Positions 13,537 through 47,330 of a stretch of 64,000 nucleotides of DNA are shown here, piece after piece. Where the stretch lies: assembly GCA_018266295.1 (NCBI GenBank), contig JAFEAQ010000011.1:967626-1031625 (forward strand), read 5' to 3'. This DNA comes from Bdellovibrionales bacterium. Its GTDB lineage: Bacteria > Bdellovibrionota > Bdellovibrionia > Bdellovibrionales > Bdellovibrionaceae. Within the stretch, counting starts at the first letter, position 1, and each line of letters begins with the position of its first letter. The notes under the pieces were generated by a model. It did no database searches, was not told the DNA's origin, and worked only from the letters and a program-made list of their open reading frames with translations. The position numbers and the translations under genes were made by a program.

Positions 13537-13558
13537 ATCTCGTCACTGATTCGGATGG

Positions 13559-23615: not shown

Positions 23616-25871
23616 TTAGAAATAACTATGTGGATAGTGCAGAAAGAAGTCACCGAAGAACATGCGGCTTTTCTCGATGCGCAAATTGCTATCAGTTATG
23701 TTCTCTGAATCAGGATAGTTGAGGTCCATCGCCTGAGAAGCTTCACCCGCAAGTGTCTCCGCCGTATTTAAGTCCACCGCCGATTGGAGAGTGGCCGTTC
23801 CCCAAGTCGCACTTGGTAAAAGATTTTTCACTCGCTCAAAACGACTTTGAGGCAGCGACTCCCAAGTCGGAATCTCTTCATTTGCCGCTAACAAAATAAA
23901 TCCGTCATTTTCGTATCCCGGCATCACAGTGACGTACGGGAAAACACTTTTTGCCGTCCTGACCATCACGGCAACGTCTTCAGAAATACCGTAAAAGAGC
24001 TGTGAGTATGAGCCACCCGGTTTCAACTTTTTTCTGACTTCTTGATAGAACTCCACTGAGAAAAGAACTGTTGAACCCGCCCCGTAAGGATCGACGTTCA
24101 CAGAAATCAAATCCCATTGTCTATTCGCTAAGAACATGTAACTGCGGCCATCATCGACAATGTTTTTAATCCGCGGATCTTGAAGATAAACGGTATCTTT
24201 AAACTTCATTTCCTTCTGCGCCGCGACCACTTGCGGTAGGATTTCAACCGCCGTGATGGACTCTGGCTCCGACAAACGACTGAAAGCTTCCGTCGTCAAA
24301 CCGTACCCCATACCAACTACCAAAACATCTTTTACCGACCGAGCGATCAAAGATGGAAAAAGCGCCAAATTTCTCTGGACGAATGGAGTCTCGGAATCTC
24401 CGTAAGCGCCCACAAGACTGATATAGTTGTTAATCATTGCCCAGCGCCGCCCTGGTGGTTGCAAGTCGATCAAAGCTAGATATCCATACTCGTCCTCGGC
24501 CTCCCAGATCGACGGTGGGTTGGGGCTCAGACTCACATTCATTTTTGCAGTCATTGCCGTTCCTAAAATAACCAGCACAAGGCCGACTGCCTTCGCCTGC
24601 CTCGAGGCGAACGTAAAAACCGCCACTGCAAGGAACAACAAGAGACCAAAGATAAATACTTTCAAGGTACTCACCGTACCGAGCGTGCGAAACAAAACAT
24701 ACGTCGTCAGCATCGAGCCTAGGACCGACATCAGTGTATTTAAGTACAAAGCCTTAGAAAGAGCCCGCGTCTTTTGCCAAGCGCCTATGGCTTCTTTTTG
24801 AATAAGGCTCATCGACAAAGGAAAGCAAATGCCTAGGGCGATACTTGGAACTAAAGCGATGAATAATAACGTCAGGAAAAACTCTGGATGCAGGGCCTTC
24901 TTGCTTGGCGAAACAAGATCCATCGTCTTTGCGATAGATAAAGACATACAATATAATCCCAGCCAACTCGACAACACCGACACGGTTAACGCCGAAACAA
25001 TCACCTTCAGCTGCTTTTTCTCACTATACAAAGAAAACTTAGGGCTCCACCACGCTGAAACCGCAAGACAAAGAAGAATCACCATAAGCACCAATGAAGG
25101 CACGTACAAGCGGCTTCCTAAAAAGAAACTCGACAAACGGAACCACACTTGCTCCATGCTCAATAAAAAGAAACCGCTAAAAGCACTCAAGAGAAGTGCA
25201 AGACGCAATCCAAACTGAGAGGTCGCCCCTTTTTCATCGTTAGAGACACTTTCCTCAGCCGCGGCTTCTTCGAAGCGAAACTTTTCATTTTTAAGTAATA
25301 CCGCCGCAAGAATATTCCCGAGAAGGCCGACTATCAGCGCTGCATACAAGCCGCCATAGTAAATCAGTACCGTAAATGAAAGAAAGGCACCGAGGGCTCC
25401 ACCGAGGCAGTTGGCAGAATAAAGCCACTGATGTTCGCGAGAGTTCGGAAAAAGATAACTAATGAGTGGAAATGAAAATCCCATGAGAAACGTCACAGGA
25501 AAAATAAAAATTCCCGTCACAAGAAAGTGCATGGCGATTTTTGGCAAAAAACCGCTACGCAAAAGATCGAGAACCCAACCATTATGCGAAAGAACGATAA
25601 AGAAGCTCACCGCTGCGAGCACCGCAATCAAGACTTCACAAATCGCATAGAGGGGCAGAGATTTCTTCCAGCGCCCTTGCAAAATCTTTGGCGCAAAGGC
25701 TGTTCCTAAACCCAGTCCCAGCATGAAGTGAGCAATCACACAAGAAATCGAAAGAGCATTGCCGCCCAAGAGAATCGCGAAGGCGCGAATCCAAAGCGTT
25801 TGATATAGCAAAGCCGAAAAACCGGTCAGTATCATTGCTGTCAATCCCAATGGAATTGTTTTTGACTTCAC
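23616..25871 (-). CDS. Polytopic membrane protein fused to a spermidine-synthase-like domain
   Basis: 751 residues. The N-terminal ~430 residues form about 12-14 hydrophobic helices; the C-terminal ~300 residues resemble spermidine synthase (aminopropyltransferase, SpeE-like). The nucleotide loop is DVLVVGMGYGLTTEAF, the acidic motif is NIVDDGRSYM, and a D-x6-D pair as in the SpeE catalytic loop is kept in WDLISVNVDPYGAG. Such fused proteins are widespread but their reaction is mostly unknown. GTG start at 25871 with GGAGG 6 bases upstream. It is divergent (85-bp gap) from a three-gene unit whose last gene encodes a second fused protein of the same type. Confidence 0.82.
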   Translation of the reverse strand: MKSKTIPLGLTAMILTGFSALLYQTLWIRAFAILLGGNALSISCVIAHFMLGLGLGTAFAPKILQGRWKKSLPLYAICEVLIAVLAAVSFFIVLSHNGWVLDLLRSGFLPKIAMHFLVTGIFIFPVTFLMGFSFPLISYLFPNSREHQWLYSANCLGGALGAFLSFTVLIYYGGLYAALIVGLLGNILAAVLLKNEKFRFEEAAAEESVSNDEKGATSQFGLRLALLLSAFSGFFLLSMEQVWFRLSSFFLGSRLYVPSLVLMVILLCLAVSAWWSPKFSLYSEKKQLKVIVSALTVSVLSSWLGLYCMSLSIAKTMDLVSPSKKALHPEFFLTLLFIALVPSIALGICFPLSMSLIQKEAIGAWQKTRALSKALYLNTLMSVLGSMLTTYVLFRTLGTVSTLKVFIFGLLLFLAVAVFTFASRQAKAVGLVLVILGTAMTAKMNVSLSPNPPSIWEAEDEYGYLALIDLQPPGRRWAMINNYISLVGAYGDSETPFVQRNLALFPSLIARSVKDVLVVGMGYGLTTEAFSRLSEPESITAVEILPQVVAAQKEMKFKDTVYLQDPRIKNIVDDGRSYMFLANRQWDLISVNVDPYGAGSTVLFSVEFYQEVRKKLKPGGSYSQLFYGISEDVAVMVRTAKSVFPYVTVMPGYENDGFILLAANEEIPTWESLPQSRFERVKNLLPSATWGTATLQSAVDLNTAETLAGEASQAMDLNYPDSENITDSNLRIEKSRMFFGDFFLHYPHSYF

Positions 25872-26409: not shown

Positions 26410-27188
26410 TGATGTCACTACAGAACTTCTCAGAAGTGAAACTTTCCGTCTTTCGCGCAATGACGTTAGTCTTTGCGGTGCTTCTTGTAGTAGATCAAAT
26501 GGTGTTCTGGCAATGGACCACAGAGGGAGAGTACACTCCGATCAGCATTTTTTCGTTTCTGCCGAGAGCCTTTTTCGAAAACAAGTTCGCGTTCTATGTG
26601 ACCTCTGCGATCGCAGTCCTTAGCCTGCTTCTTTGGATGTTTCGCCAGACACCGCGAGCTCTTTCAGTTCTCTCTGTAGTGGCGTTTGGCATTGCTTCGA
26701 CATTTTATCTGCAGAACCTTCCTTTTGGGGATCATCGTCAGGCCGTGGTGTTTTTGTTGCTCGCCGGACTGGCAGCGACTGAATTTAATTTATCTGAAAA
26801 GACTTTCTTTCCGCTCGCGGCCTGTGCGCTCTTGAGTCTTTACTTCTTAGCCGGTTGGGAAAAAGTTTTTTGGTCAGGACTTTCTTGGGCGAATGGATCC
26901 AGCCTGCAGGTTTTTGCCCACTATTTAGGGCGCGAAGGATCGGTCTTACGTGGTTGGATCTTAGACTCTAAATCTTTCGCACAAGCTCTGCAGATCTGCG
27001 GCGTGATTTTAGAATGTGGTGTTTTTGCTTTATTATTCCGTGGTCCGGTTCAATGGCTATGGTTGATCGGTCTTCTTTTCTTTCACGGAGCCATTGAAGA
27101 AATATTTATGTATCGTTTCTTCCCGTTCTATATCCTCGTATTCTACCTCTTTGGCTGGCCGGCTCTTCAAAGGCGGATGAATGGGTAG
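26409..27188 (+). CDS. Polytopic membrane protein, possibly HTTM/carboxylase-related
   Basis: 259 residues with about six to seven hydrophobic helices. The central segment YFLAGWEKVFWSGLSW and then VFAHYLGR resembles the HTTM / vitamin-K-dependent carboxylase-related family pattern (Y-x-x-AG-x-x-K...), but the match is weak. The start ATG overlaps the previous stop by one base and its own end overlaps the next gene by 8 bases, so all three are translationally coupled. Confidence 0.62.
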   Translation: MMSLQNFSEVKLSVFRAMTLVFAVLLVVDQMVFWQWTTEGEYTPISIFSFLPRAFFENKFAFYVTSAIAVLSLLLWMFRQTPRALSVLSVVAFGIASTFYLQNLPFGDHRQAVVFLLLAGLAATEFNLSEKTFFPLAACALLSLYFLAGWEKVFWSGLSWANGSSLQVFAHYLGREGSVLRGWILDSKSFAQALQICGVILECGVFALLFRGPVQWLWLIGLLFFHGAIEEIFMYRFFPFYILVFYLFGWPALQRRMNG

Positions 27189-29412
27189 TTTGTACTTATG
27201 GTGGTTTGGCGCACCGGTTTTCATTTATCAGATCCTGACGGCGAGAATGATTTCGCAAATCTATGGCGATCTTTTTCTGACTCAATTATTAATTATCGCC
27301 ATTTCCTACTTTGGCCATGCAATAGGGAGTGTGATTGCTCACCGTTGGCGCGGGTCTTTGCCGTTAGCGCACCTGAGTCTTGCAATCTGTAATGTTCTTT
27401 TACTGGTTTTCTGGCACGAACCTGTTTGGTCGGCAGCACCGGTGTATGTTTTGTTTTTCGCGATTTCTTTCTTCTCGGCCCTGCTCTTTCCTCTTTTCTA
27501 TCAAAGATTCGAGGCCATCCCCACTTCGTTTAATAAAATCTATTTCGGGTTTCACTTATTAATTGTGCTCTTACTGCCCGCGATGGACCTATTGGCGATT
27601 GGAACTTGGGGCATTCAGAAGATTTTTGCCGGGCTCTTAGCGACTGAGATCTTCTGGGGACTTTACTGGTGGCGAAATCCTGGCGTGCAAAAAACGCGGC
27701 CCATCGCTCGCAAAGCACCGCCGTCTTCTTTGGCGACCAGCTTGTTTCTGTTTTCGATGATGAGCGGAGTGGTTCAAGGACTTCTCTACCGCCAAGTGCA
27801 AACAGTTCTTGAGCCGCTGGCATTTCACTACAGTCTTTTTATCGCAGCATTGATGGCAGGATGGGCTCTTTGTAGTGCGTGGTTCTATAAAAAACCAAAT
27901 TCGATTTCATGGAACGGATTTAAAAACTACCTACCGCTGACAATCGCCGCTTTGTTTTTTTGGTCCTTGGCGTGGACATGGCTCTGGTCTTACGGTCTTG
28001 ATTTGTTCTTTGCTTGGGACGGAAACTCCCTCGCCGCTCGAGTCATTTATGTTTTCGGGCTTGTACTTCCGGCCGCATTTTTATTTGGCGCCTTAATGCC
28101 GTTAGTGCAACGAGAAGCGACGGCGGTTCCTATCGGCCGCTGGCTTGGTGTGAACTCCGCCGGAAACATGGCGGGTTTATTGATTTACATTGCAGTGATC
28201 TTTCCGATGGCACCCGGTCTTTTTATTTGGATCGGTCTTTTCGTGCTCACCGCGATGCTCTTGCCAAAAAGCCGTGCCGCTATCAAGCCCCTGGCTTTTG
28301 CGGTCCTGCCGATTGCAGGGATTGCTTTCTTGACCACAAACTACAACTGGAATCTCGGCAGTTACTTCTATCGCAGTCTTCAGCAATGGCAGAAAGTCAG
28401 CGGTGACGTGAGTAAGACCGAGCTCTATCGCTCGTATGGGAGTCAACTGTCGTTGGTGACTTTGAAATCCGAAGACAAAATGCTTTTCATGAATGGCCAC
28501 TACTCCGTTTATATTCCTGCCGGAGAAAAAGTGGCTCCCGCTGATGTGATGATGGGATTACCTGCCTTACACTACACCGCGGAACAAAACCGTGCGTTAC
28601 TGATGGGCCTTGGTACGGGATTTACCGCCATGGGACCGGCAAAAATTTTTCAGCAACTTGATATCGTTGATATTGATCCGACGATGACGAGACTCACGTC
28701 AAAGCTTGCAGCGAAAGAAACTTTTCAGCAAGCCAATGTGAAATTTATTGAAGCCGATGGCTTAACGTACTTACGCAAGCATTTGCAAAAGTATGATCTC
28801 ATCATTAACAACGTTCCTTCGCCGGTTTATTTTGCCTCGGGAAAACTTTGGACTCGTGAAGCCTTCCAAGCCATTTCAGAATCGCTTAACGACAATGGAA
28901 TTTTCTTTCAATGGCTTTCGGCAGAGTTTAACGAGCGCGAACTCCCCGTCGTTTGGCAAACAATGCGTGATTATTTTCCGCGCTGTGATCTGTATACACT
29001 GGGCTATCACTTTCACGGTCTTGTCTGCGCAAAAAACACTGCGAAAGAACTGAGATTCTCGGAGGTCCCCGCTGAAAAATTGGCACCTTTATTAAATATG
29101 TCGACGAGTGATTATTTAAAACTGCTTGCGAACATAAGTTTCCGCGACATCAAGCTCCCCACTCCGGCGGCTGGTACTCCTTTCCACACTTTGGATCAAC
29201 CGTATTTAGAAATGCTCACGAGTCAGAGACCTCCGGGCTGGAGAAGCGAACAGATGACGGATGAAGTAATTTCTGCTCTCGGAATTCCCGAAAGATTACG
29301 CAGTAAACTCAATTCAGAAGAGTTATTTGCAAAGTGTCACGCAATCTCACAATGGCTGGGGTTTGATATTGAGATGGGACCTGAGTCCTGCAAAAGGCTT
29401 GGTTTAAATTGA
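27181..29412 (+). CDS. Second membrane protein fused to a degenerate spermidine-synthase-like domain
   Basis: 743 residues, the same architecture as the divergent gene: ~12 hydrophobic helices, then a SpeE-like methyltransferase-fold domain with a nucleotide loop (ALLMGLGTGFTAMG) and DIVDIDPTMT acidic strand. The catalytic strand, however, is YDLIINNVPSPVY: the Asp residues that activate the amine in aminopropyltransferases (D-x-x-DP) are replaced by Asn/Ser. True aminopropyl transfer is therefore unlikely. It may bind a nucleotide or act as a transporter-linked sensor. It overlaps the upstream gene by 8 bases. Confidence 0.8.
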   Translation: MGSLYLWWFGAPVFIYQILTARMISQIYGDLFLTQLLIIAISYFGHAIGSVIAHRWRGSLPLAHLSLAICNVLLLVFWHEPVWSAAPVYVLFFAISFFSALLFPLFYQRFEAIPTSFNKIYFGFHLLIVLLLPAMDLLAIGTWGIQKIFAGLLATEIFWGLYWWRNPGVQKTRPIARKAPPSSLATSLFLFSMMSGVVQGLLYRQVQTVLEPLAFHYSLFIAALMAGWALCSAWFYKKPNSISWNGFKNYLPLTIAALFFWSLAWTWLWSYGLDLFFAWDGNSLAARVIYVFGLVLPAAFLFGALMPLVQREATAVPIGRWLGVNSAGNMAGLLIYIAVIFPMAPGLFIWIGLFVLTAMLLPKSRAAIKPLAFAVLPIAGIAFLTTNYNWNLGSYFYRSLQQWQKVSGDVSKTELYRSYGSQLSLVTLKSEDKMLFMNGHYSVYIPAGEKVAPADVMMGLPALHYTAEQNRALLMGLGTGFTAMGPAKIFQQLDIVDIDPTMTRLTSKLAAKETFQQANVKFIEADGLTYLRKHLQKYDLIINNVPSPVYFASGKLWTREAFQAISESLNDNGIFFQWLSAEFNERELPVVWQTMRDYFPRCDLYTLGYHFHGLVCAKNTAKELRFSEVPAEKLAPLLNMSTSDYLKLLANISFRDIKLPTPAAGTPFHTLDQPYLEMLTSQRPPGWRSEQMTDEVISALGIPERLRSKLNSEELFAKCHAISQWLGFDIEMGPESCKRLGLN

Positions 29413-29568
29413 GTTCTGCACGAAATCCCAACAAAGGTGTGTGCTTAAAGCACCAGGCGTGTGCAGAAAGCTACAGTCCGGCCCCTCTGTGGAAGGTTGC
29501 AAATTATTGAATTTCATAGGAAAATCTCATCATACAGTCCTTAAAAACTTTTGAATAAGAGAGAAACC

Positions 29569-30687
29569 ATGAGCATTCAACAAGTTCCATTTATCACACT
29601 AAATCGTTTTGAACCCGGCTTCCGCGAAGAATTCTTGGGCGGAGTTGCAACTCTGTTTGAAAAGACTCAATTCGTTGGTGGTCCGATCGTTGGCGAAATG
29701 GAAGCCAACCTTGCGAAGTACACAAAATCAAAACACGCTATCGGTTGCGCGAACGGAACAGATGCCATCCAAATCGCTTTGCGCGGTGTGGGCGTTCAAA
29801 AGAACGATAAGGTTCTTGTTCCTGATATGACTTTCTGGGCAACTTTCGAGGCGGTTGTCAACGTGGGTGCAAATCCTGTGACTGTCGACGTAAACCGCGA
29901 ACTGTGCCACTGGGATCTTGCGACCTTCAAAAAAGCAGTTGAGCAATTCAAACCTAAAGCGGCCGTCATGGTTCACCTCTATGGTTGGGCAACTCCAGAC
30001 ACTCTTGAAATCCGTAAGTATGCAAAAGACAACGGCGTGATCTTGATCGAAGACGGTGCTCAGTGCTTCGGAACTGAAATCGACGGCCAGTCAGTTTTGG
30101 GTTCAGCTTTGATTTCTACAACAAGCTTCTACCCTGCAAAAGTTCTTGGCGCTTCCGGCGATGCGGGCGCAATCTTCACTTCAAGTGATGAATATGCGAA
30201 AAACTGCCGTACACTCATCAACCACGGCAGAACAGATCACTATTCTCACGGGATGATCGGCTGGAACTCTCGTATCGGTGCTTACGAGTCTTTATTCTTG
30301 AACATCTCTTTGAAACATATCGATGCTCGTATCAAGAGCCGTATGAACGCTGTGAAGTTCTACGAAGAATCACTGCAAGGTTTGCCATTCAAACCGGTTC
30401 GAGCTTCGAACAAGGTGAAAGAAAACGGATACTGCGCCGTAGGTATGGTGGATCCGGCAAAACGTGCTGCGGTGATTGAGAACCTTAAAAAGGCCAACGT
30501 TGGCTACGGTACAATTTATCCGGGCGCGATGAGCATGCAATCTGGTGCTGCAGGCCACTTGGCTGGCAAGATTGATAACGGCAATGCTCACTATATTTCG
30601 CAAGCTGTTTTGAATCTGCCGTGCTTTGCGTACATCACTCCGGAAGAACTTCAGTACGTTGTTGATGTTGTAAAGAAAAGCTTCTAG
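29569..30687 (+). CDS. DegT/DnrJ/EryC1/StrS-family sugar aminotransferase
   Basis: About 372 residues, PLP-dependent, fold type I. The PLP-binding lysine is in STTSFYPAKVLGASGDAGAI, preceded by LIEDGAQCFG (Asp binding the PLP ring nitrogen). The family aminates nucleotide-linked keto-sugars for O-antigen, capsule or lipid A-type glycans. Start at 29569, with GAGAG upstream; an in-frame TTG 18 bases earlier is unlikely. It stands alone with a terminator behind, so its pathway cannot be told from context. Confidence 0.9.
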   Translation: MSIQQVPFITLNRFEPGFREEFLGGVATLFEKTQFVGGPIVGEMEANLAKYTKSKHAIGCANGTDAIQIALRGVGVQKNDKVLVPDMTFWATFEAVVNVGANPVTVDVNRELCHWDLATFKKAVEQFKPKAAVMVHLYGWATPDTLEIRKYAKDNGVILIEDGAQCFGTEIDGQSVLGSALISTTSFYPAKVLGASGDAGAIFTSSDEYAKNCRTLINHGRTDHYSHGMIGWNSRIGAYESLFLNISLKHIDARIKSRMNAVKFYEESLQGLPFKPVRASNKVKENGYCAVGMVDPAKRAAVIENLKKANVGYGTIYPGAMSMQSGAAGHLAGKIDNGNAHYISQAVLNLPCFAYITPEELQYVVDVVKKSF

Positions 30688-37489: not shown

Positions 37490-38608
37490 TTACTTTACTT
37501 GCGCAGGCACGTAGCAGAGACCGAGAGATCCCCAATACTTGTCACCTTCATAAATTTTAAAGAGTTTGTTCATAGACTTGTAAGGAAAATAATTCGAAGA
37601 CAGATTGTCGTTCTCTTGCCAGAGTTCGACGGTGTCGATCGTAGTTTTCTTCATCCATCCAGAAATATCAGAATCAAAAAGACTCTGACGAATATCCGAT
37701 GGGTAAGACTCTCTCAGACAGAGGAAACCTTTAAAGTTCACGTCATTCAATACGTTGAGAAGAGCTCTTTCAAAGAGAGTCAAATCACGCTGAGTTCCTG
37801 CAACCATCAACGTCGCTTGCAAGCGCTTAGAGCAATCAGGCAAGTTCTGCGCATCGCCTGCGCGCGATTGATAGCACTGGAGGAAATCAAAATAGAGAAC
37901 CTCTGAAATCGGCAAGCTCTGGCGTTGCGGATGTTCTGGAGGATGCTGCATGAACGTGTAATAGAAACCCGCTTGCAAAAGCACTTCTGGCACGGGGCTC
38001 TTCAAGCTCAGCATACGACCGAGCTTGTCGTAGAAATCAAAGATCGCCTCTTGATCGTAAGGATTGGTGAAGTAAGCCTCAGCGGCCATTTCCATGTCGA
38101 CCATCTGATCATAGGAAATTTCAACCTGCAGGTTCCACAGCGACTCATGGAATAAAATCGTCGCCTGCTGAATTTCATTCAACTTGTAGAACTCCGGCAT
38201 CAAGAAAGTTTCCGCCTTATCGTTCGTCATTCCGAAAAGCACTAGGTTTGACTCAGGCTCACCGGTCAAACGACGGTATTCTTCAATCAAATCTTGGTGC
38301 TGGCTCGTCGTCAGATCTTTTTCTGAGATCTGATAATATGTGCGCGAACTTCCTGACGGATAGATCAAAGAAAGGAGGCTCCCCTTGATCTGCGGATTCA
38401 AAGGGGCCTGATTGATTTTATTAATCAGCAGTGCCAATCCCGGCACTTCTTTCAACTTCATCGGCGTTGAGCGGACTTGAATTTTTGCGCTATAGAACGT
38501 CAGATACTGGCCATCCTGATAAAATCCGCCGCCGCCGTTGCGAACACGAGACCAACCCCACATCATTTGCGGAACCATTAGGACTACGAGAAGAACTGAG
38601 AGTCTCAT
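37490..38608 (-). CDS. Secreted protein of unknown function, coupled to a TIGR02147 regulator
   Basis: 372 residues with a signal peptide (about 1-18). The mature N-terminus has RVRNGGGGFYQDGQ; further on LFHESLWNLQVE contains an H-E-S stretch that is not a full zinc motif. Two Cys pairs occur in the C-terminal half (CYQSRAGDAQNLPDC and CLRE...CYVP). I recognise no family; such predicted proteins next to TIGR02147 regulators occur in Bdellovibrio-like genomes, as I recall. Its ATG overlaps the stop of the regulator gene (ATGA), so the regulator and this protein are translated from one message. Confidence 0.72.
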   Translation of the reverse strand: MRLSVLLVVLMVPQMMWGWSRVRNGGGGFYQDGQYLTFYSAKIQVRSTPMKLKEVPGLALLINKINQAPLNPQIKGSLLSLIYPSGSSRTYYQISEKDLTTSQHQDLIEEYRRLTGEPESNLVLFGMTNDKAETFLMPEFYKLNEIQQATILFHESLWNLQVEISYDQMVDMEMAAEAYFTNPYDQEAIFDFYDKLGRMLSLKSPVPEVLLQAGFYYTFMQHPPEHPQRQSLPISEVLYFDFLQCYQSRAGDAQNLPDCSKRLQATLMVAGTQRDLTLFERALLNVLNDVNFKGFLCLRESYPSDIRQSLFDSDISGWMKKTTIDTVELWQENDNLSSNYFPYKSMNKLFKIYEGDKYWGSLGLCYVPAQVK

Positions 38609-39414
38609 GCTTTCTCCGTGAGTTCGAAAAATTGCGTTGAAAAGCAGTAAACCGAATCTTTCGGCACTGGCTCTGACTGCTGCTCAAGTTCGCGGTCAAA
38701 CTCCTGACAAAGTCTTTGGATGAACTCTTTCAGGACAGGAATTTTTTCTTTACGAATTGAGAACACAACAGATGAGAAATCGCGCTCCGTCACATTACGC
38801 TCTTCCAAAGCCTGTTCGGCTTTATCCAGCAACTGGCGGTGATAACTGCGAATTGCCGAAGAAGAAATATCCTGAGTCGTCGTGCGGTTGATTTCACTGC
38901 GCCTGAACGAATCCCCATCACGCACCACCAAACCCAAGCGCATCAAGCGTTCCAGAGCTTGCGTTGCTGTTTCAATAGAAACATTGAGCTTCTTGGAAAT
39001 AAAATCCGCATTACCTTGGAAACCTTCCAGATCAATCAGTTCCATAATCGCCAGGTGATACCAATCGGCGATCAGCTCAAACTCATCCAATTGAAGCTCC
39101 CGGGCTTCAGGAAATCTTTGACGAAGACGCTCGATCGCAATCTTACGAGTCACAGTTCCGCGGCCATGCACGCTTTGAACGAGATCCACGAAAATCTTTT
39201 TCTCTTCGTCGGGAATCTTCAAACGCTCAGCGACCACAACAGCGCGGTCCTCTGACAATCCTACTTTTCCGTGGAGAATTTCAGTCAGGCGCGAAGAGCG
39301 GATTTCAAGCTCTTTCGCAAAAGATCTCACTGAGTAGTTGCGGTCATTGCTCTGACGTTTTTTTAATTCGTCAGCAAGAAAGTGGCGATAACTTAAATAA
39401 CGTTCTAATGGCAT
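38605..39414 (-). CDS. TIGR02147-family regulator (second copy in window)
   Basis: About 269 residues, paralogue of the protein at 18.3-19.1 kb. N-terminal HTH (YSVRSFAKELEIRSSRLTEI, then LHGKVGLSED), then DWYHLAIMELIDLEGFQGNA, a winged-helix-like ISKKLNVSIETATQALERL and a C-terminal segment (FSIRKEKIPVLKEFIQRL) as in the family. ATG at 39414 chosen; TTG at 39429 is also in frame. It is upstream of, and overlaps by 4 bases with, a secreted protein gene. Presumed transcription factor; target unknown. Confidence 0.85.
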   Translation of the reverse strand: MPLERYLSYRHFLADELKKRQSNDRNYSVRSFAKELEIRSSRLTEILHGKVGLSEDRAVVVAERLKIPDEEKKIFVDLVQSVHGRGTVTRKIAIERLRQRFPEARELQLDEFELIADWYHLAIMELIDLEGFQGNADFISKKLNVSIETATQALERLMRLGLVVRDGDSFRRSEINRTTTQDISSSAIRSYHRQLLDKAEQALEERNVTERDFSSVVFSIRKEKIPVLKEFIQRLCQEFDRELEQQSEPVPKDSVYCFSTQFFELTEKA

Positions 39415-39583
39415 GCAAACTCTGTACAAAAATTAAAAAGCATTGTCATTGTTTAATCTGTTTATTGTGCGGAACAGCCCACGGGCGGTCATGGACGGAT
39501 CAAGATAGTCCACACTGAAATTTCCTCTCATATTTTTTAAAAAAAGAACGATAACCTGAAAACATATTAGGGGGAGGTTCCAC

Positions 39584-42043
39584 GTGTTTTTAAAAACCAG
39601 CCAGCTTTGGCTCGTCGTGAGCAGCATTGCGATCTTTGCAGCATGCAATCCAATGCACGCCTCAGATACTCCTGCGGAAACGTCGCTTTCATCTGCGAAA
39701 CCGGAATTACAAGCAGTGATTAAAGCAATCACACCAAATATTTGCTCGACGGTGCCTGAGTATGGGACTGCAAAAATCACCTGTCCTGCGGGGCAAACTG
39801 TTTCGGAAGTAATATTTGCGAGCTACGGCAGTCCAACAGGATCTTGTGGAGCGTTTAAAACGTCTTCATGTAATGCCGCAAACTCTCTCGATATTGTAAA
39901 AAGAGCCTGCCTTGGAAAAGCCTCCTGCTCTATCGAAGCGAACAATGGTCCTTTCGGCGACCCTTGCGAAGGCACCGGCAAATCTCTTTCAGTTCAAGTG
40001 ACGTGCTCAGATGCTGGCTCTGCGACGCCGCAACCAACCGCGACGCCAACTCCTGCACCAACTCCGACCGCAACACCTGTGAGCTCTGGAAACATCTGTG
40101 GTAAAGTCGCCGAACATGGCAATGCCAACATTGCCTGCCCCGCGGGACAAACGATCAGTAAGATTGTTTTTGCAAGCTATGGAGCCGCCACCGGTTCCTG
40201 CGGATCTTATAAAGTAGCTTCCTGCCATGCCGCAAACTCCATGACCGTCTTACAGGCCTGCGTGGGTAAAAGTTCGTGCGTGATTGCCGCGAATAACACT
40301 CCTTTCGGCGATCCGTGCGAGGGCGTGCAGAAATCTCTGACTTACGAAGTGCAGTGTTCAGGCACGGTCGTTCAACCGACGCCGACGCCGTCACAAGGTC
40401 CTGGCAGCGGTTCATGGACCTATGATCTGGATACAGATCACGCGGCATTTGCACTCTATGCGCTCAACGATAGCGGCGCTCTGGTTGCAACGCCGACGTC
40501 TTCAGGTGCGAAGCCTTATGCTTTTGCTGTCTATAACGAGTTCGGCAAAGTGGTTGCGCCTCTGTCAGCGACAGCACAAGCCAACGGAACTTATCGTTAT
40601 GCTTTGCCGACAAGTCGACTTGGTTATTTTGAAATCAAACCAACGGAGGGAAATGCTGCTGTCTTGATTCCAGCAATTGGCTCACGCCCTGCCGGCATGA
40701 TCACTTATGCAGTTCTAAAAGGCAAAGAAGCCAATCCCAGTGCGGATTTCCAAGATGAATTCACTTCCGTGCAAGGGACGACTCTTGAAGCCGGAGCCGA
40801 TTACCTCGGGAGCGGAACTTATTCATGGCTTGGGTACAGCACTTACGGAACTTCATATTACTCGTGGCGCGATTGTTCGCCGAATGAAGCCTCTGCAAGC
40901 GCTGATTGCCAAAAACACATGGCCGATGATCCCGTCGCAAACATCTATAAAACGAAGAAGATGATTCCACTCTTCTACATGAACGAATATCCATTGTGGG
41001 CCGTGGCTTCTACCAACGGCAGCGCTTTCGGATATCCGCCAAAAGATATGAATAAGTGGAAAGCACATCTCGAATACGTCGTTCCACTCATCACGCAAAG
41101 ATATCAGTTCTTGCCATTCCGCCGTTACCAAATCACTTGGGAACCAAACGATGGCTGGGGATGGTACGGAACCGATGAGCAATTCCTGCAAATTTATAGC
41201 ATCGCCTATTCGACAATTAAAAAGTACGATCCAACAGCGGTTGTGATGGGCCCAACAATTACAAACTTCGGCCCTGAGATGAAGTCGCAGCTGCAGCGCC
41301 TGCTCAGTAAAGGCCTGGGTAATTATATGAATGCTCTGAGCTGGCATCCATATCCTGCCTACAGTCAGATCTATGGCCTGAATGACGGCTGGATTGCCGA
41401 CTTCCGCGCGATGACAAATCAAGCCATGGGCCGCGTCGTTCCGATGTATCTCACCGAGAGTGGCATGAGCGACTATGAAATGGGTTTCACCGGAACTCAT
41501 CCCGTAAAGAGCAACTTCGCTGTCTATCACGGCGTCGCGAATGTTGCGATGGCATTGCTGGCAAAGAATGACGGGGCTTCGTTGCATACCTACTTTTACA
41601 CGGCCGACTATGCGTCTCAGCCGCGCTATGGATTATTCTATAACGTGACTCAGGCTTATAGCTTTGGTCCGAACAAAGTTTCTCCGAAGCCGGATGTGTC
41701 TATGATCCGTCAGGCCAACGATTTGCTGAATCACTCAAATGGAGTTGGCCGCTTGATCAATCCGTCCGGCAACACAAATCTGCAAGTCTTCTATTACCAG
41801 AACAAGCGCTCTGGCGTGTATACGTCTGTGCTCTGGGATCCGAGCGGAAATAACGGCACTATCGCTCTTCCGGTAGGAGTCGCCCAAGTCAAAGTTATGG
41901 ATGCGCACGGAAATGCTAGCATGATGAATTCAACGAACGGCGTTCTCAGCCTGACGTTGGGAATTACGCCCGTGTATGTTGAAGGAATCGCTGCCTCGGC
42001 CCTTATTGGTCTGACACCATCAGCACCTGTTGGCTCTCCGTAA
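39584..42043 (+). CDS. Lipoprotein with two SUEL-type lectin domains and a GH-A-like glycosidase domain
   Basis: 819 residues. Lipoprotein signal peptide with FAAC at residues 18-21. Residues 54-141 and 172-258 are two SUEL (sea-urchin egg lectin, Gal-lectin) domains, each with CPAGQT, IVFASYG, SCG, C-x-GKSSC and FGDPCEG-x-x-KSL motifs; a Pro/Thr linker (PTATPTPAPTPTATP) separates them. Residues ~380-700 look like a TIM-barrel glycosidase of clan GH-A: ITWEPND near 519-523 (possible acid/base Glu) and PMYLTESGMS near 620 (possible nucleophile Glu). GTG start with GAGG upstream; a hairpin terminator follows. SUEL lectins bind rhamnose/galactose and are mainly known from animals. The enzyme's substrate is unknown. 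Confidence 0.83.
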   Translation: MFLKTSQLWLVVSSIAIFAACNPMHASDTPAETSLSSAKPELQAVIKAITPNICSTVPEYGTAKITCPAGQTVSEVIFASYGSPTGSCGAFKTSSCNAANSLDIVKRACLGKASCSIEANNGPFGDPCEGTGKSLSVQVTCSDAGSATPQPTATPTPAPTPTATPVSSGNICGKVAEHGNANIACPAGQTISKIVFASYGAATGSCGSYKVASCHAANSMTVLQACVGKSSCVIAANNTPFGDPCEGVQKSLTYEVQCSGTVVQPTPTPSQGPGSGSWTYDLDTDHAAFALYALNDSGALVATPTSSGAKPYAFAVYNEFGKVVAPLSATAQANGTYRYALPTSRLGYFEIKPTEGNAAVLIPAIGSRPAGMITYAVLKGKEANPSADFQDEFTSVQGTTLEAGADYLGSGTYSWLGYSTYGTSYYSWRDCSPNEASASADCQKHMADDPVANIYKTKKMIPLFYMNEYPLWAVASTNGSAFGYPPKDMNKWKAHLEYVVPLITQRYQFLPFRRYQITWEPNDGWGWYGTDEQFLQIYSIAYSTIKKYDPTAVVMGPTITNFGPEMKSQLQRLLSKGLGNYMNALSWHPYPAYSQIYGLNDGWIADFRAMTNQAMGRVVPMYLTESGMSDYEMGFTGTHPVKSNFAVYHGVANVAMALLAKNDGASLHTYFYTADYASQPRYGLFYNVTQAYSFGPNKVSPKPDVSMIRQANDLLNHSNGVGRLINPSGNTNLQVFYYQNKRSGVYTSVLWDPSGNNGTIALPVGVAQVKVMDAHGNASMMNSTNGVLSLTLGITPVYVEGIAASALIGLTPSAPVGSP

Positions 42044-42145: not shown

Positions 42146-42910
42146 ATGCGTCTGGTGTTTTTATTTTTTTTAGCTTTAGTTTCAACGTCGCTGGCTTCTT
42201 CGACGGAAGCGGCGATGATTCCTTTTGGTTTCTGGAAACCAAAATGCTCTCCTCCATTCGCCTCTTCATGGACTCCGCGCTGGAATAATATCATCCAATA
42301 CTGGAACCTCAATGGCAGCGCGGGCTCCATCTCTGATGGAGCCACGATCCCAGCAACCATCGGTTCTGCTGGAACCGCGACAGAGCCAGGCATGGCCTAT
42401 GTTACCGGGAAAATCGGCAACGCCGTTTCTTTTAACGGCGGAAGCTACATAGACATGGGCTCGCTGGCAAACACGCTGAACCGGCCTCAGATGTCGATTG
42501 CCGCGTGGATTTACCCCACCGCGAACTCTCGCAGCACGATCGCTGGCGCAGAGTTCCTAATGAAAATTCAGTTCACTGATACCTACACCGTGCGCGTTCT
42601 TGCGAGCAAAGATGGCTTTTCTTGGGCCGGGATTATCGAATCCACCACGACCTACCCGCTGAACCGATGGCTTCATATGGTCGCTACTTATAATGGCAGT
42701 CAGCTTGTCCTTTATGCCAATGGCATTTCTGTCGGAAGCACACCGATCACCGGCAATCTTTCTTCTTCCGGCAGCTCTTTTCAAATCTCAGGCTACGATG
42801 GCTTGAATGAGATGTTTACTGGCATTATTGACGATGTGGCGGTCTGGAATACAGGTCTGACCGCTGATGAAGTGATGAGAATCTACACCGGACAGAACTG
42901 CAAACCTTAA
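42146..42910 (+). CDS. Secreted LamG / concanavalin A-like jellyroll protein
   Basis: 254 residues with a signal peptide (about 1-22). From residue ~90 on it matches a LamG-type lectin-like fold: GNAVSFNGGSYIDMG, SIAAWIYPT, NRWLHMVATYNGSQLVLYAN, then IDDVAVWNTGLTADEV at the end, a typical LamG ending. Such domains bind sugars or other ligands at the cell surface. It follows the lectin-glycosidase lipoprotein by about 100 bases after a terminator, so it likely has its own promoter. Ligand unknown. Confidence 0.82.
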   Translation: MRLVFLFFLALVSTSLASSTEAAMIPFGFWKPKCSPPFASSWTPRWNNIIQYWNLNGSAGSISDGATIPATIGSAGTATEPGMAYVTGKIGNAVSFNGGSYIDMGSLANTLNRPQMSIAAWIYPTANSRSTIAGAEFLMKIQFTDTYTVRVLASKDGFSWAGIIESTTTYPLNRWLHMVATYNGSQLVLYANGISVGSTPITGNLSSSGSSFQISGYDGLNEMFTGIIDDVAVWNTGLTADEVMRIYTGQNCKP

Positions 42911-42992: not shown

Positions 42993-43745
42993 ATGAAAAC
43001 ACTTACCGGATTTTTTATAATCGCAATGCTGACAGTCGCATGTTCCGGCCCTAAGAGTTTCAACGTGGATTCGCTTCCAGGCGCCGGAGACAATGACTCT
43101 CTTGAAGTCACCCCAACGCCGACTCCGGGACCTTCACCGAGTCCGACAATAACCCCTAGTCCAAGCCCGACCCCGACTCCGGTCGCGGAGGCTTCGCCTA
43201 AAGACCTCACTCCCCTTTGGGAAGCAAGTATCAAGAATAGCAAAGAGTGGAGCGACTATGTTTATCTCAAGCTCGATACACTGGGCACCGATTTGCTCGA
43301 TGTGATTCCAGGGGACCGCACCACATTCTGCCCGAAGTACAGCAGCCTGTCTTACAGCCAAAGAAAAATGTATTGGACGTTCATGCTTTCCGCGATGGCA
43401 AAATTTGAAAGTGGTTTTAATACGAACTCTAAATACACCGAGAGCTTCAATGACTCTAACGGCAATCCAGTAATCAGCCGCGGTCTGTTGCAAATTTCTA
43501 TTGAAAGTGGCAATGGCTATGGCTGCGGTTTAAAAACGGCGCAAGACCTGCATGATCCTTTGCAAAATCTTGCATGCGGTATCCGCATCTTGAATCGTTG
43601 GGTCTATCGCGACGCTCGTATCGCAGGCAAAGTCAGTGGTACCTGGCGCGGAGGTGCGCGCTACTGGTCGGTTCTGCGCGAAGGAAACAAAACTTCGTAC
43701 CAGTCGATCTTAAAGTGGAGTAAAGCTCTTTCCATCTGTAACTAA
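42993..43745 (+). CDS. Lipoprotein with Pro/Thr linker and lysozyme/SLT-like domain
   Basis: 250 residues. Lipobox at LTVACSG (Cys 17), then a low-complexity Pro/Thr/Ser linker (residues ~40-65) and a globular domain (~75-250). The domain holds MAKFESGFNT (Glu 139, placed like the catalytic Glu of lytic transglycosylases), ISRGLLQIS and paired Cys (TFCPKYS...YGCGL...LACGIRIL). It is homologous to the protein at 46.4-47.3 kb. It probably cleaves peptidoglycan glycan strands at the envelope; not proven by sequence alone. A bidirectional terminator follows. Confidence 0.77.
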   Translation: MKTLTGFFIIAMLTVACSGPKSFNVDSLPGAGDNDSLEVTPTPTPGPSPSPTITPSPSPTPTPVAEASPKDLTPLWEASIKNSKEWSDYVYLKLDTLGTDLLDVIPGDRTTFCPKYSSLSYSQRKMYWTFMLSAMAKFESGFNTNSKYTESFNDSNGNPVISRGLLQISIESGNGYGCGLKTAQDLHDPLQNLACGIRILNRWVYRDARIAGKVSGTWRGGARYWSVLREGNKTSYQSILKWSKALSICN

Positions 43746-43750
43746 AAAGA

Positions 43751-43782
43751 AAAAGGGACTGGAAAGCCAGTCCCTTTTTTAT
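43751..43782. terminator. Bidirectional terminator
   Basis: 12-bp perfect stem AAAAGGGACTGG/CCAGTCCCTTTT with a 4-base loop; T-runs on both strands serve the convergent lipoprotein and stress-protein genes. Confidence 0.9.
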
Positions 43783-46451: not shown

Positions 46452-47330
46452 ATGTTGCGATGGACTTTATTAGTATCTGCGATGGTATTTACACAACAAA
46501 GTATGGCATCTTGGGGAGCTTCGCCTCTCGATCGTGAACTAGTAACTAGTTCTTATCGCCAGCAATTTGATGGGATTCAGAATCAAGTTCAGGTCAACGA
46601 ACTTCGAAAGTCTGCGGATGGCATCGAGGTCGACATGAATGCCGCAACCGATGTTAGTCAAATCATTGATAAAAAGTATGGCGATAAGTGCGAAAACTTT
46701 GCTGGCGACGGCGAGTTAAATAAATGGGGTCAAGCGATCGAAAAAGAATTCGATAAGGACAGGCATCAGGCTCTTTACGGTGGTCCTTCTGATGTTCGCC
46801 GTTTATGCCCTAAGTATGACGAATTAAATGATGAAGATAAAAAAGGTCTTTGGGTCCTTATAATCTCTGCAATGACCCACTATGAAAGCACTTGTATCGT
46901 TTCAGAATCGGCACGTGGCCCCCATGGTACCGCGGCAGGTTTATTACAACTGCACAGAGGCAAAGAAGCTAATTACTCTTCAGGCTGCCGCAATGGCGAC
47001 TCTAATACAGCGGAAAGAAGTATCATTTGTGGTATGTCGATGTTGAATGATCAGATCGAAAGAGGAGAACCTCTCTTTAGCCGTAAATCTTACTGGGATG
47101 TTTTGCGTCCTCAAGGTGCTTCGCAAAAATCAGTTCGTATCCAAGCCGTTATCGGTCAGTACCCAGCTTGCAAAACCGGCAAATCAACGGATGGTACGAC
47201 TCAGCTAGATATCCAGCCAGATCCTAAGACCGCTCCGTCTGGAAAATCTTCGAAGCGTGCAAGACAGCAGTCTCAAAAGGCTCCTTCTTCAAACAAAAAA
47301 GCCCGCGTTGCAAACTCAAACCGTTCGTAA
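46452..47330 (+). CDS. Secreted lysozyme/SLT-like protein
   Basis: 292 residues with a signal peptide (1-~19). Paralogue of the lipoprotein at 43.0-43.7 kb: both share CPKY, a segment AMTHYESTC / AMAKFESGF (Glu 145 here as likely catalytic residue), a GLLQL/GLLQI motif and a C-terminal C-G-[MI]-x-[MI]-L-N. The C-terminal ~50 residues are Lys/Ser/Pro-rich and probably disordered. Predicted peptidoglycan-cleaving enzyme in periplasm or secreted. The end overlaps the end of the methyltransferase gene on the other strand by 15 bases. Confidence 0.75.
   Translation: MLRWTLLVSAMVFTQQSMASWGASPLDRELVTSSYRQQFDGIQNQVQVNELRKSADGIEVDMNAATDVSQIIDKKYGDKCENFAGDGELNKWGQAIEKEFDKDRHQALYGGPSDVRRLCPKYDELNDEDKKGLWVLIISAMTHYESTCIVSESARGPHGTAAGLLQLHRGKEANYSSGCRNGDSNTAERSIICGMSMLNDQIERGEPLFSRKSYWDVLRPQGASQKSVRIQAVIGQYPACKTGKSTDGTTQLDIQPDPKTAPSGKSSKRARQQSQKAPSSNKKARVANSNRS

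Follow-up and report, generated by a model that had tools for sequence, protein, structure and literature searches.

A putative Bdellovibrionales lipoprotein coupling two SUEL lectin domains to a GH39-like enzyme module

Results

Gene layout and genomic surroundings

We analysed a window of 64,000 nucleotides from a Bdellovibrionales bacterium, the whole stretch of DNA to which all positions refer unless a locus is named. The reading frame at 39584–42043 on the forward strand is intact and opens with GTG, immediately 3′ of a Shine-Dalgarno-like GGGGGAGG (ribosome-binding sequence); it encodes 819 aa, and its coordinates are exactly those of an initial annotation made from the sequence alone. 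Its product is probably a bacterial lipoprotein, as that annotation had proposed, judging from a lipobox (AIFAAC, with Cys21) spotted by inspection, and the Pro/Thr linker between lectins and enzyme was likewise found as described. The features of the gene and of the two genes downstream are as follows:

39584..42043 (+): whole gene, putative SUEL-SUEL-GH39-like lipoprotein, 819 aa, GTG start (ORF call, profile matches)
39584..39646 (+): signal peptide with lipobox AIFAAC and lipidated Cys21, predicted by eye (sequence)
39743..40006 (+): SUEL/Gal_lectin domain 1, residues 54–141 (PF02140 matches, fold matches)
40007..40096 (+): Pro/Thr/Ala linker joining both lectin domains (sequence)
40097..40357 (+): SUEL/Gal_lectin domain 2, residues 172–258 (PF02140 matches)
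40358..40414 (+): Pro/Thr/Gly linker leading to the enzyme module (sequence)
40415..40651 (+): N-terminal beta-sandwich of the enzyme module, residues ~278–356, where the 5jvk alignment begins (AF2 model, structure matches)
40751..41731 (+): GH39-like TIM barrel, residues ~390–716 (AF2 model, structure matches, profile)
41135..41149 (+): T518-W519-E520-P521-N522, candidate acid/base E520 (alignments)
41345..41353 (+): H588-P-Y590, the barrel H-x-Y, conserved with GH39 (alignments)
41453..41464 (+): T624-E625-S626-G627, candidate nucleophile E625 (alignments)
41732..41989 (+): C-terminal beta-sandwich, residues ~717–802 (AF2 model, profile)
42146..42910 (+): secreted Laminin_G_3 (LamG) protein, 102 nt downstream (profile match)
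42993..43745 (+): lipoprotein with SLT transglycosylase domain (profile match)

The LamG and SLT genes may be co-transcribed with the lectin-enzyme gene. The SLT gene is followed by a hairpin (43750–43779) that has T runs on both strands and is usable as a terminator in either direction. On the other side lies a divergent TIGR02147/DUF4423 regulator (38605–39429, −), from a family with 22 matches in this genome versus 0–17 in the relatives searched. A second SLT-like secreted protein is encoded near the first (46452–47330, +). Further upstream, two genes (23616–25871, −, and 27181–29412, +) encode large membrane proteins that span the membrane several times and end in a spermidine-synthase-like part; they lie near another membrane protein gene and that of a DegT-like aminotransferase (29551–30687), all recognised by eye. 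The GC content (0.509) and GC3 (0.511) of the lectin-enzyme gene fall inside the range of its neighbours, so composition gives no sign of recent transfer. A phage or defence origin was also rejected, with no phage record, no PHROG or PADLOC family and no viral contig found.

Two SUEL domains of the bacterial and plant-like subtype

The two tandem Gal-lectin domains of the initial annotation, a type familiar chiefly from sea-urchin eggs and plant enzymes, are borne out by profile searches. PF02140 matched the protein twice, with a significant whole-protein score of 118.6 bits (E = 1.6e-34, hmmscan), and in a whole-genome profile search the domains scored 76.4 and 62.5 bits separately, both above the Pfam gathering cut-off of 31.4 bits, with no further SUEL match in the genome. 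They are 62% identical to each other, and both contain, within the ranges first given, all eight cysteines of the family (54, 67, 88, 96, 109, 115, 128 and 141 in domain 1; 172, 185, 206, 214, 226, 232, 245 and 258 in domain 2), which correspond to the four-disulfide set of SUEL lectins (PMC3269628). The AF2 model of domain 1, built from two sequences, is of low confidence (pLDDT 65); its 14 top Foldseek matches are all SUEL or rhamnose-binding lectins (best E = 1.3e-3), and the score falls sharply beyond rank 14.

The sugar contacts of CSL3 are Glu7, Tyr27, Asn74, Asp79, Gly83 and Lys86 (PMC3269628), and five of the six are kept in both domain 1 (Y81, N121, D126, G130, K133) and domain 2 (Y199, N238, D243, G247, K250). 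The position of Glu7, adjoining Cys2, is taken by Pro68 and Pro186, respectively, and a Glu common to bacterial and plant domains (E59 and E177) precedes the neighbouring Cys by eight residues. From family membership and the kept contact residues, the SUEL pair would be expected to bind L-rhamnose or D-galactose.

The motifs here are FASYG and GDPCEG--K, whereas their animal counterparts read ANYGR and DPC-GTYKYL; in terms of the animal YGR and DPC..KYL motifs, Tyr-Gly and DPC-G--K are present while Arg and KY are absent, like in bacterial and plant domains. Single-domain profile scores were 73.8 bits for rice beta-galactosidase 1, 58.5 for the best sea-urchin domain, 55.5 (E = 5e-14) for bacterial RemA and ~27 for CSL3, and the best single-domain PDB match was rice beta-galactosidase. 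Domain 1 shares 54% identity with a SUEL domain from another Bdellovibrionota genome (L008), 47% with the best sea-urchin domain, 46% with a Hymenobacter domain (L015) and 38% with rice. By these motifs, scores and identities, the lectin part is, as far as its sequence indicates, of a bacterial and plant-like SUEL subtype. The original label of "animal-type" is only half right and, being misleading, is better dropped: plants, Acanthamoeba and bacteria have the domain too, and the rice domain outscores every single sea-urchin domain. Transfer of the lectin from an animal to a bacterium is unsupported, the near domains (L008, Hymenobacter) being bacterial, and a published Gal_Lectin tree already uses bacterial members as its outgroup (PMC6712302).

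Compared with SUL-I (5h4s) and CSL3 (2zx0), the pair has the same tandem Gal_lectin arrangement, eight Cys, DPC motif and five of the six sugar contacts, but it reads FASYG rather than ANYGR and lacks Glu7, and in the animal lectins no glycosidase is attached. Plant beta-galactosidase is a GH35 enzyme with one C-terminal SUEL domain. Rice BGal1 (5iaz) resembles the window protein in carrying SUEL on a glycoside hydrolase and in sharing FAS[YF]G...G.CG and the upstream Glu, whereas here two N-terminal SUEL domains precede a GH39-like enzyme. Flavobacterium RemA (8gl6) is likewise a bacterial protein with a SUEL domain, but it is 1436 aa long and contains no glycosidase.

A GH39-like enzyme module with an altered acid/base motif

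The AF2 model of residues 265–819 (pLDDT 73.7, pTM 0.79) has a GH39-type fold, with a TIM barrel and beta-sandwich, in agreement with the TIM-barrel-like region first proposed. Its top PDB match is the B. cellulosilyticus WH2 GH39 enzyme 5jvk (Z 26.0 over 453 residues), of which all three subdomains, beta-sandwich, barrel and beta-sandwich, align. Next comes the GH39 endo-glycosidase PslG of P. aeruginosa (5bx9, 4zn2, 9g17; Z ~23 over 371 residues), sharing the barrel, the C-terminal sandwich and the Glu pair, and then GH30 and GH39 enzymes, including GH39 xylosidases, at Z ~18. The differences are also clear: 5jvk is 14% identical and has no SUEL reported in its chain, and PslG, which acts on a rhamnose-containing exopolysaccharide and whose gene sits in the psl cluster, is without lectin domains and does not match the window protein significantly when the two sequences are compared directly.

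Single-sequence searches returned GH39 below threshold only. A 28-member family profile matched GH39 xylosidases (E = 1.3e-8) and 5jvk (E = 1.7e-8). In these alignments E520 falls on the acid/base Glu, E625 on the nucleophile and H588-x-Y590 on the GH39 H-x-Y. The two Glu initially picked out as catalytic candidates, in WEPN and LTESG, are thus the conserved residues aligned with the GH39 pair, and it is this alignment from which they would be predicted to face each other. The enzyme part scored 15.7 bits against PF01229 (GH39), missing the gathering cut-off of 26; full-length scores were 14.8 for the window protein and 15.3 and 19.5 for two relatives (L042 and L014). An alpha-1,4-L-rhamnosidase assignment (NF042992) was rejected at 20.7 bits over 78 residues only, against a cut-off of 850.

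In clan GH-A, an Asn ahead of the acid/base Glu binds the 2-hydroxyl of the sugar under cleavage. This Asn is found in PslG, 5jvk and XynB1 (WNEPN), whereas the window protein has Trp519 (TWEPN). The [TS]WEP motif occurs in the window protein and in 81/81 relatives, with Trp before Glu throughout, a count biased by the retrieval of many relatives with a TWE-containing pattern, although plasmid loci found by tblastn without that pattern agree. E520 is kept in all 81 relatives and E625 in 80. Trp in place of Asn suggests another substrate geometry, and it could reflect a different kind of substrate or no hydrolysis. Because of this replacement and the missed PF01229 cut-off, the enzyme is filed as GH39-like and not as GH39; the earlier description as a GH-A-like glycosidase stands in so far as GH39 (5jvk, PslG) is its closest match, with the reservation that the clan's Asn is lacking. 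The module most likely works like GH39.

Relatives of the enzyme and occurrence of the architecture

When 84,980 species genomes were scanned, 240 loci were confirmed as enzyme relatives, the best 80 of them mainly from Burkholderiaceae, and tblastn against plasmids gave 15 records, including 14 from Burkholderiaceae that match the enzyme part. The top relatives come from a rumen-type MAG (L020, uncultured bacterium) and a Victivallales MAG, with a Sphingomonadales MAG lower and Burkholderiaceae making up the rest of the list; in the tree (FastTree, midpoint rooting), the window protein and these three MAG sequences lie on a long branch outside the Burkholderiaceae clade. The Burkholderiaceae hypothetical proteins (for example L012, L013, L014 and L042; ~26% identity, E to 7e-36) belong to the same enzyme family by sequence, share TWEP and TE-x-G, and in many cases have a lipobox-like N-terminus. 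Unlike the window protein, they are without SUEL and carry other repeats or low-complexity linkers at the N-terminus.

Several enzyme relatives contain small companion modules. CBM9-like domains are present in L020 and L021 (rumen MAG and Victivallales genome), and Cupriavidus L012 and L033 carry, ahead of the enzyme, pairs of FGDPAPG--K-C repeats that match no Pfam family. These repeats (~50 residues, C-x-F-x-G-T--VKYGT...NGVFGDPAPG--KSCWY), in the N-terminal parts of ORFs ending at 13548 and 9548, respectively, are a candidate new sugar-binding module. Many other relatives have linkers only. We propose that the SUEL pair stands in for the other small sugar-binding modules of the enzyme relatives. 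The SUEL motif FGDPC is absent from all 81 retrieved relatives, no SUEL was found in four genomes holding enzyme relatives, and a search run without a positive control found none in 241 genomes from the phylum to which the Victivallales MAG belongs.

SUEL itself is rare in the sampled bacteria, occurring in 4 of 291 Bdellovibrionota and 2 of 299 Pseudomonadota genomes. The survey of Bdellovibrionota that the initial annotation had called for came back empty: the same architecture was found neither in 60 relatives nor in the 291 phylum genomes by lectin or enzyme profile, where the next-best enzyme-profile matches scored 20–36 bits over partial length; every genome sampled from its own family lacked it as well. 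No other genome searched has the combination of a SUEL pair with a GH39-like enzyme, and the window protein is a module swap built from known parts.

By inspection, other Bdellovibrionota SUEL proteins pair the domain with a parallel beta-helix-like or an SGNH-type hydrolase-like part. L008 (325–1866, −) has one SUEL domain and then an apparent right-handed beta-helix, and L010 (898–3012, +), a 704-aa frame from a more distant Bdellovibrionota, combines SUEL-like repeats (three by eye) with an SGNH-hydrolase-like region. A Bdellovibrionota of another family encodes a clear PslG-like GH39 without lectin domains (L005, 1114–2184, −; PslG E = 2e-21).

Discussion

The reading we prefer, at about even probability, is a surface-anchored, lectin-guided endo-glycosidase of the retaining type, whose substrate would be a microbial polysaccharide containing rhamnose or galactose. 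The lipid on Cys21 is predicted to anchor the protein in the outer membrane, probably with outward display; the two flexibly linked SUEL domains would hold on to the L-rhamnose or D-galactose residues of a microbial polysaccharide, either extracellular or on a cell surface, and the GH39-like barrel, by alignment and fold, would cut the same polymer mid-chain with retention, E520 serving as the acid/base and E625 as the nucleophile. The target would most likely be the capsule, O-antigen or biofilm matrix of other bacteria. PslG cuts Psl, a polymer of mannose, rhamnose and glucose, with glucose in subsite −1 and rhamnose in −2 (PMC11912335), and a horseshoe-crab rhamnose-binding lectin binds the rhamnose of P. 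aeruginosa biofilm and that of LPS, Psl and rhamnolipid, and disperses biofilm (PMC6628293); lectin type and enzyme type thus meet on one kind of polymer. By this analogy, a rhamnose-bearing bacterial matrix or O-antigen would fit a SUEL pair with a PslG-like barrel best, with plant pectin and self-polysaccharide as possible alternative targets. Against the preferred reading speak Trp519, the Pro at the Glu7 position of both lectin domains and the lack of a sugar operon in the vicinity; the lectin might also attach to a polysaccharide that the bacterium itself makes.

The foremost alternative, though an unlikely one, is self-directed housekeeping, in which the lectins would tether the enzyme to exopolysaccharide or capsule of the cell's own making, for the barrel to trim or release, PslG-like. 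PslG, the closest characterised fold relative, is indeed self-directed (PMC11912335), and most enzyme relatives are found in free-living, matrix-forming Burkholderiaceae. However, no exopolysaccharide gene cluster was recognised beside the gene or beside one annotated relative locus (L014), and the window protein is unique to this genome among its relatives.

It is quite unlikely that the protein serves to scavenge wall polysaccharide from plants, algae or other eukaryotes. Here the SUEL pair would hold the enzyme on pectic galactan or rhamnogalacturonan, as the C-terminal lectin of plant beta-galactosidase does, a view for which the rice domain as best single-domain match and the CBM9-like domains of the rumen MAG and Victivallales relatives both speak; yet no sugar-uptake or saccharolytic operon or transporter was recognised by eye near the gene, and the lineage is not known to use plant polymers.

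The enzyme family is uncharacterised and its acid/base motif departs from clan GH-A, which is the most interesting part of the finding. It is decidedly doubtful that the module founds a separate glycosidase family (TWEP for NEP), coupled here to the SUEL pair as a cutter of prey or biofilm glycans steered by rhamnose/galactose recognition. Least probable is an adhesin with a non-catalytic or merely sugar-binding barrel that sticks the cell to glycans: Trp in place of Asn and the SUEL domain on RemA, a cell-surface gliding adhesin of Flavobacterium, would suit it, but both catalytic Glu and the H-x-Y are kept across the family in several phyla, a sequence pattern that points to activity.

Overall, the observation of the initial annotation is confirmed and its interpretation partly supported. 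It also envisaged the binding and cutting of prey glycans. Nothing found here links the protein to predation, a role that could only be inferred; none of the relatives searched has the architecture, so it does not belong to a predation machinery that they share. In B. bacteriovorus, prey glycans are known to be recognised by different proteins, the trimeric MAT fibres (PMC10769870).

As to what the surface-anchored, lectin-guided glycosidase would mean, its lectin part presents a bacterial and plant subtype of a domain usually called animal, and its enzyme module opens an uncharacterised family, with the 240 loci confirmed in one scan. Lectin and glycosidase on one surface lipoprotein would make a tool well suited to attacking matrix. 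Should this protein cut exopolysaccharide or O-antigen that bears rhamnose, it would offer a testable answer to how some Bdellovibrionota pass capsule and biofilm, and might itself be of use as an enzyme for dispersing biofilms.
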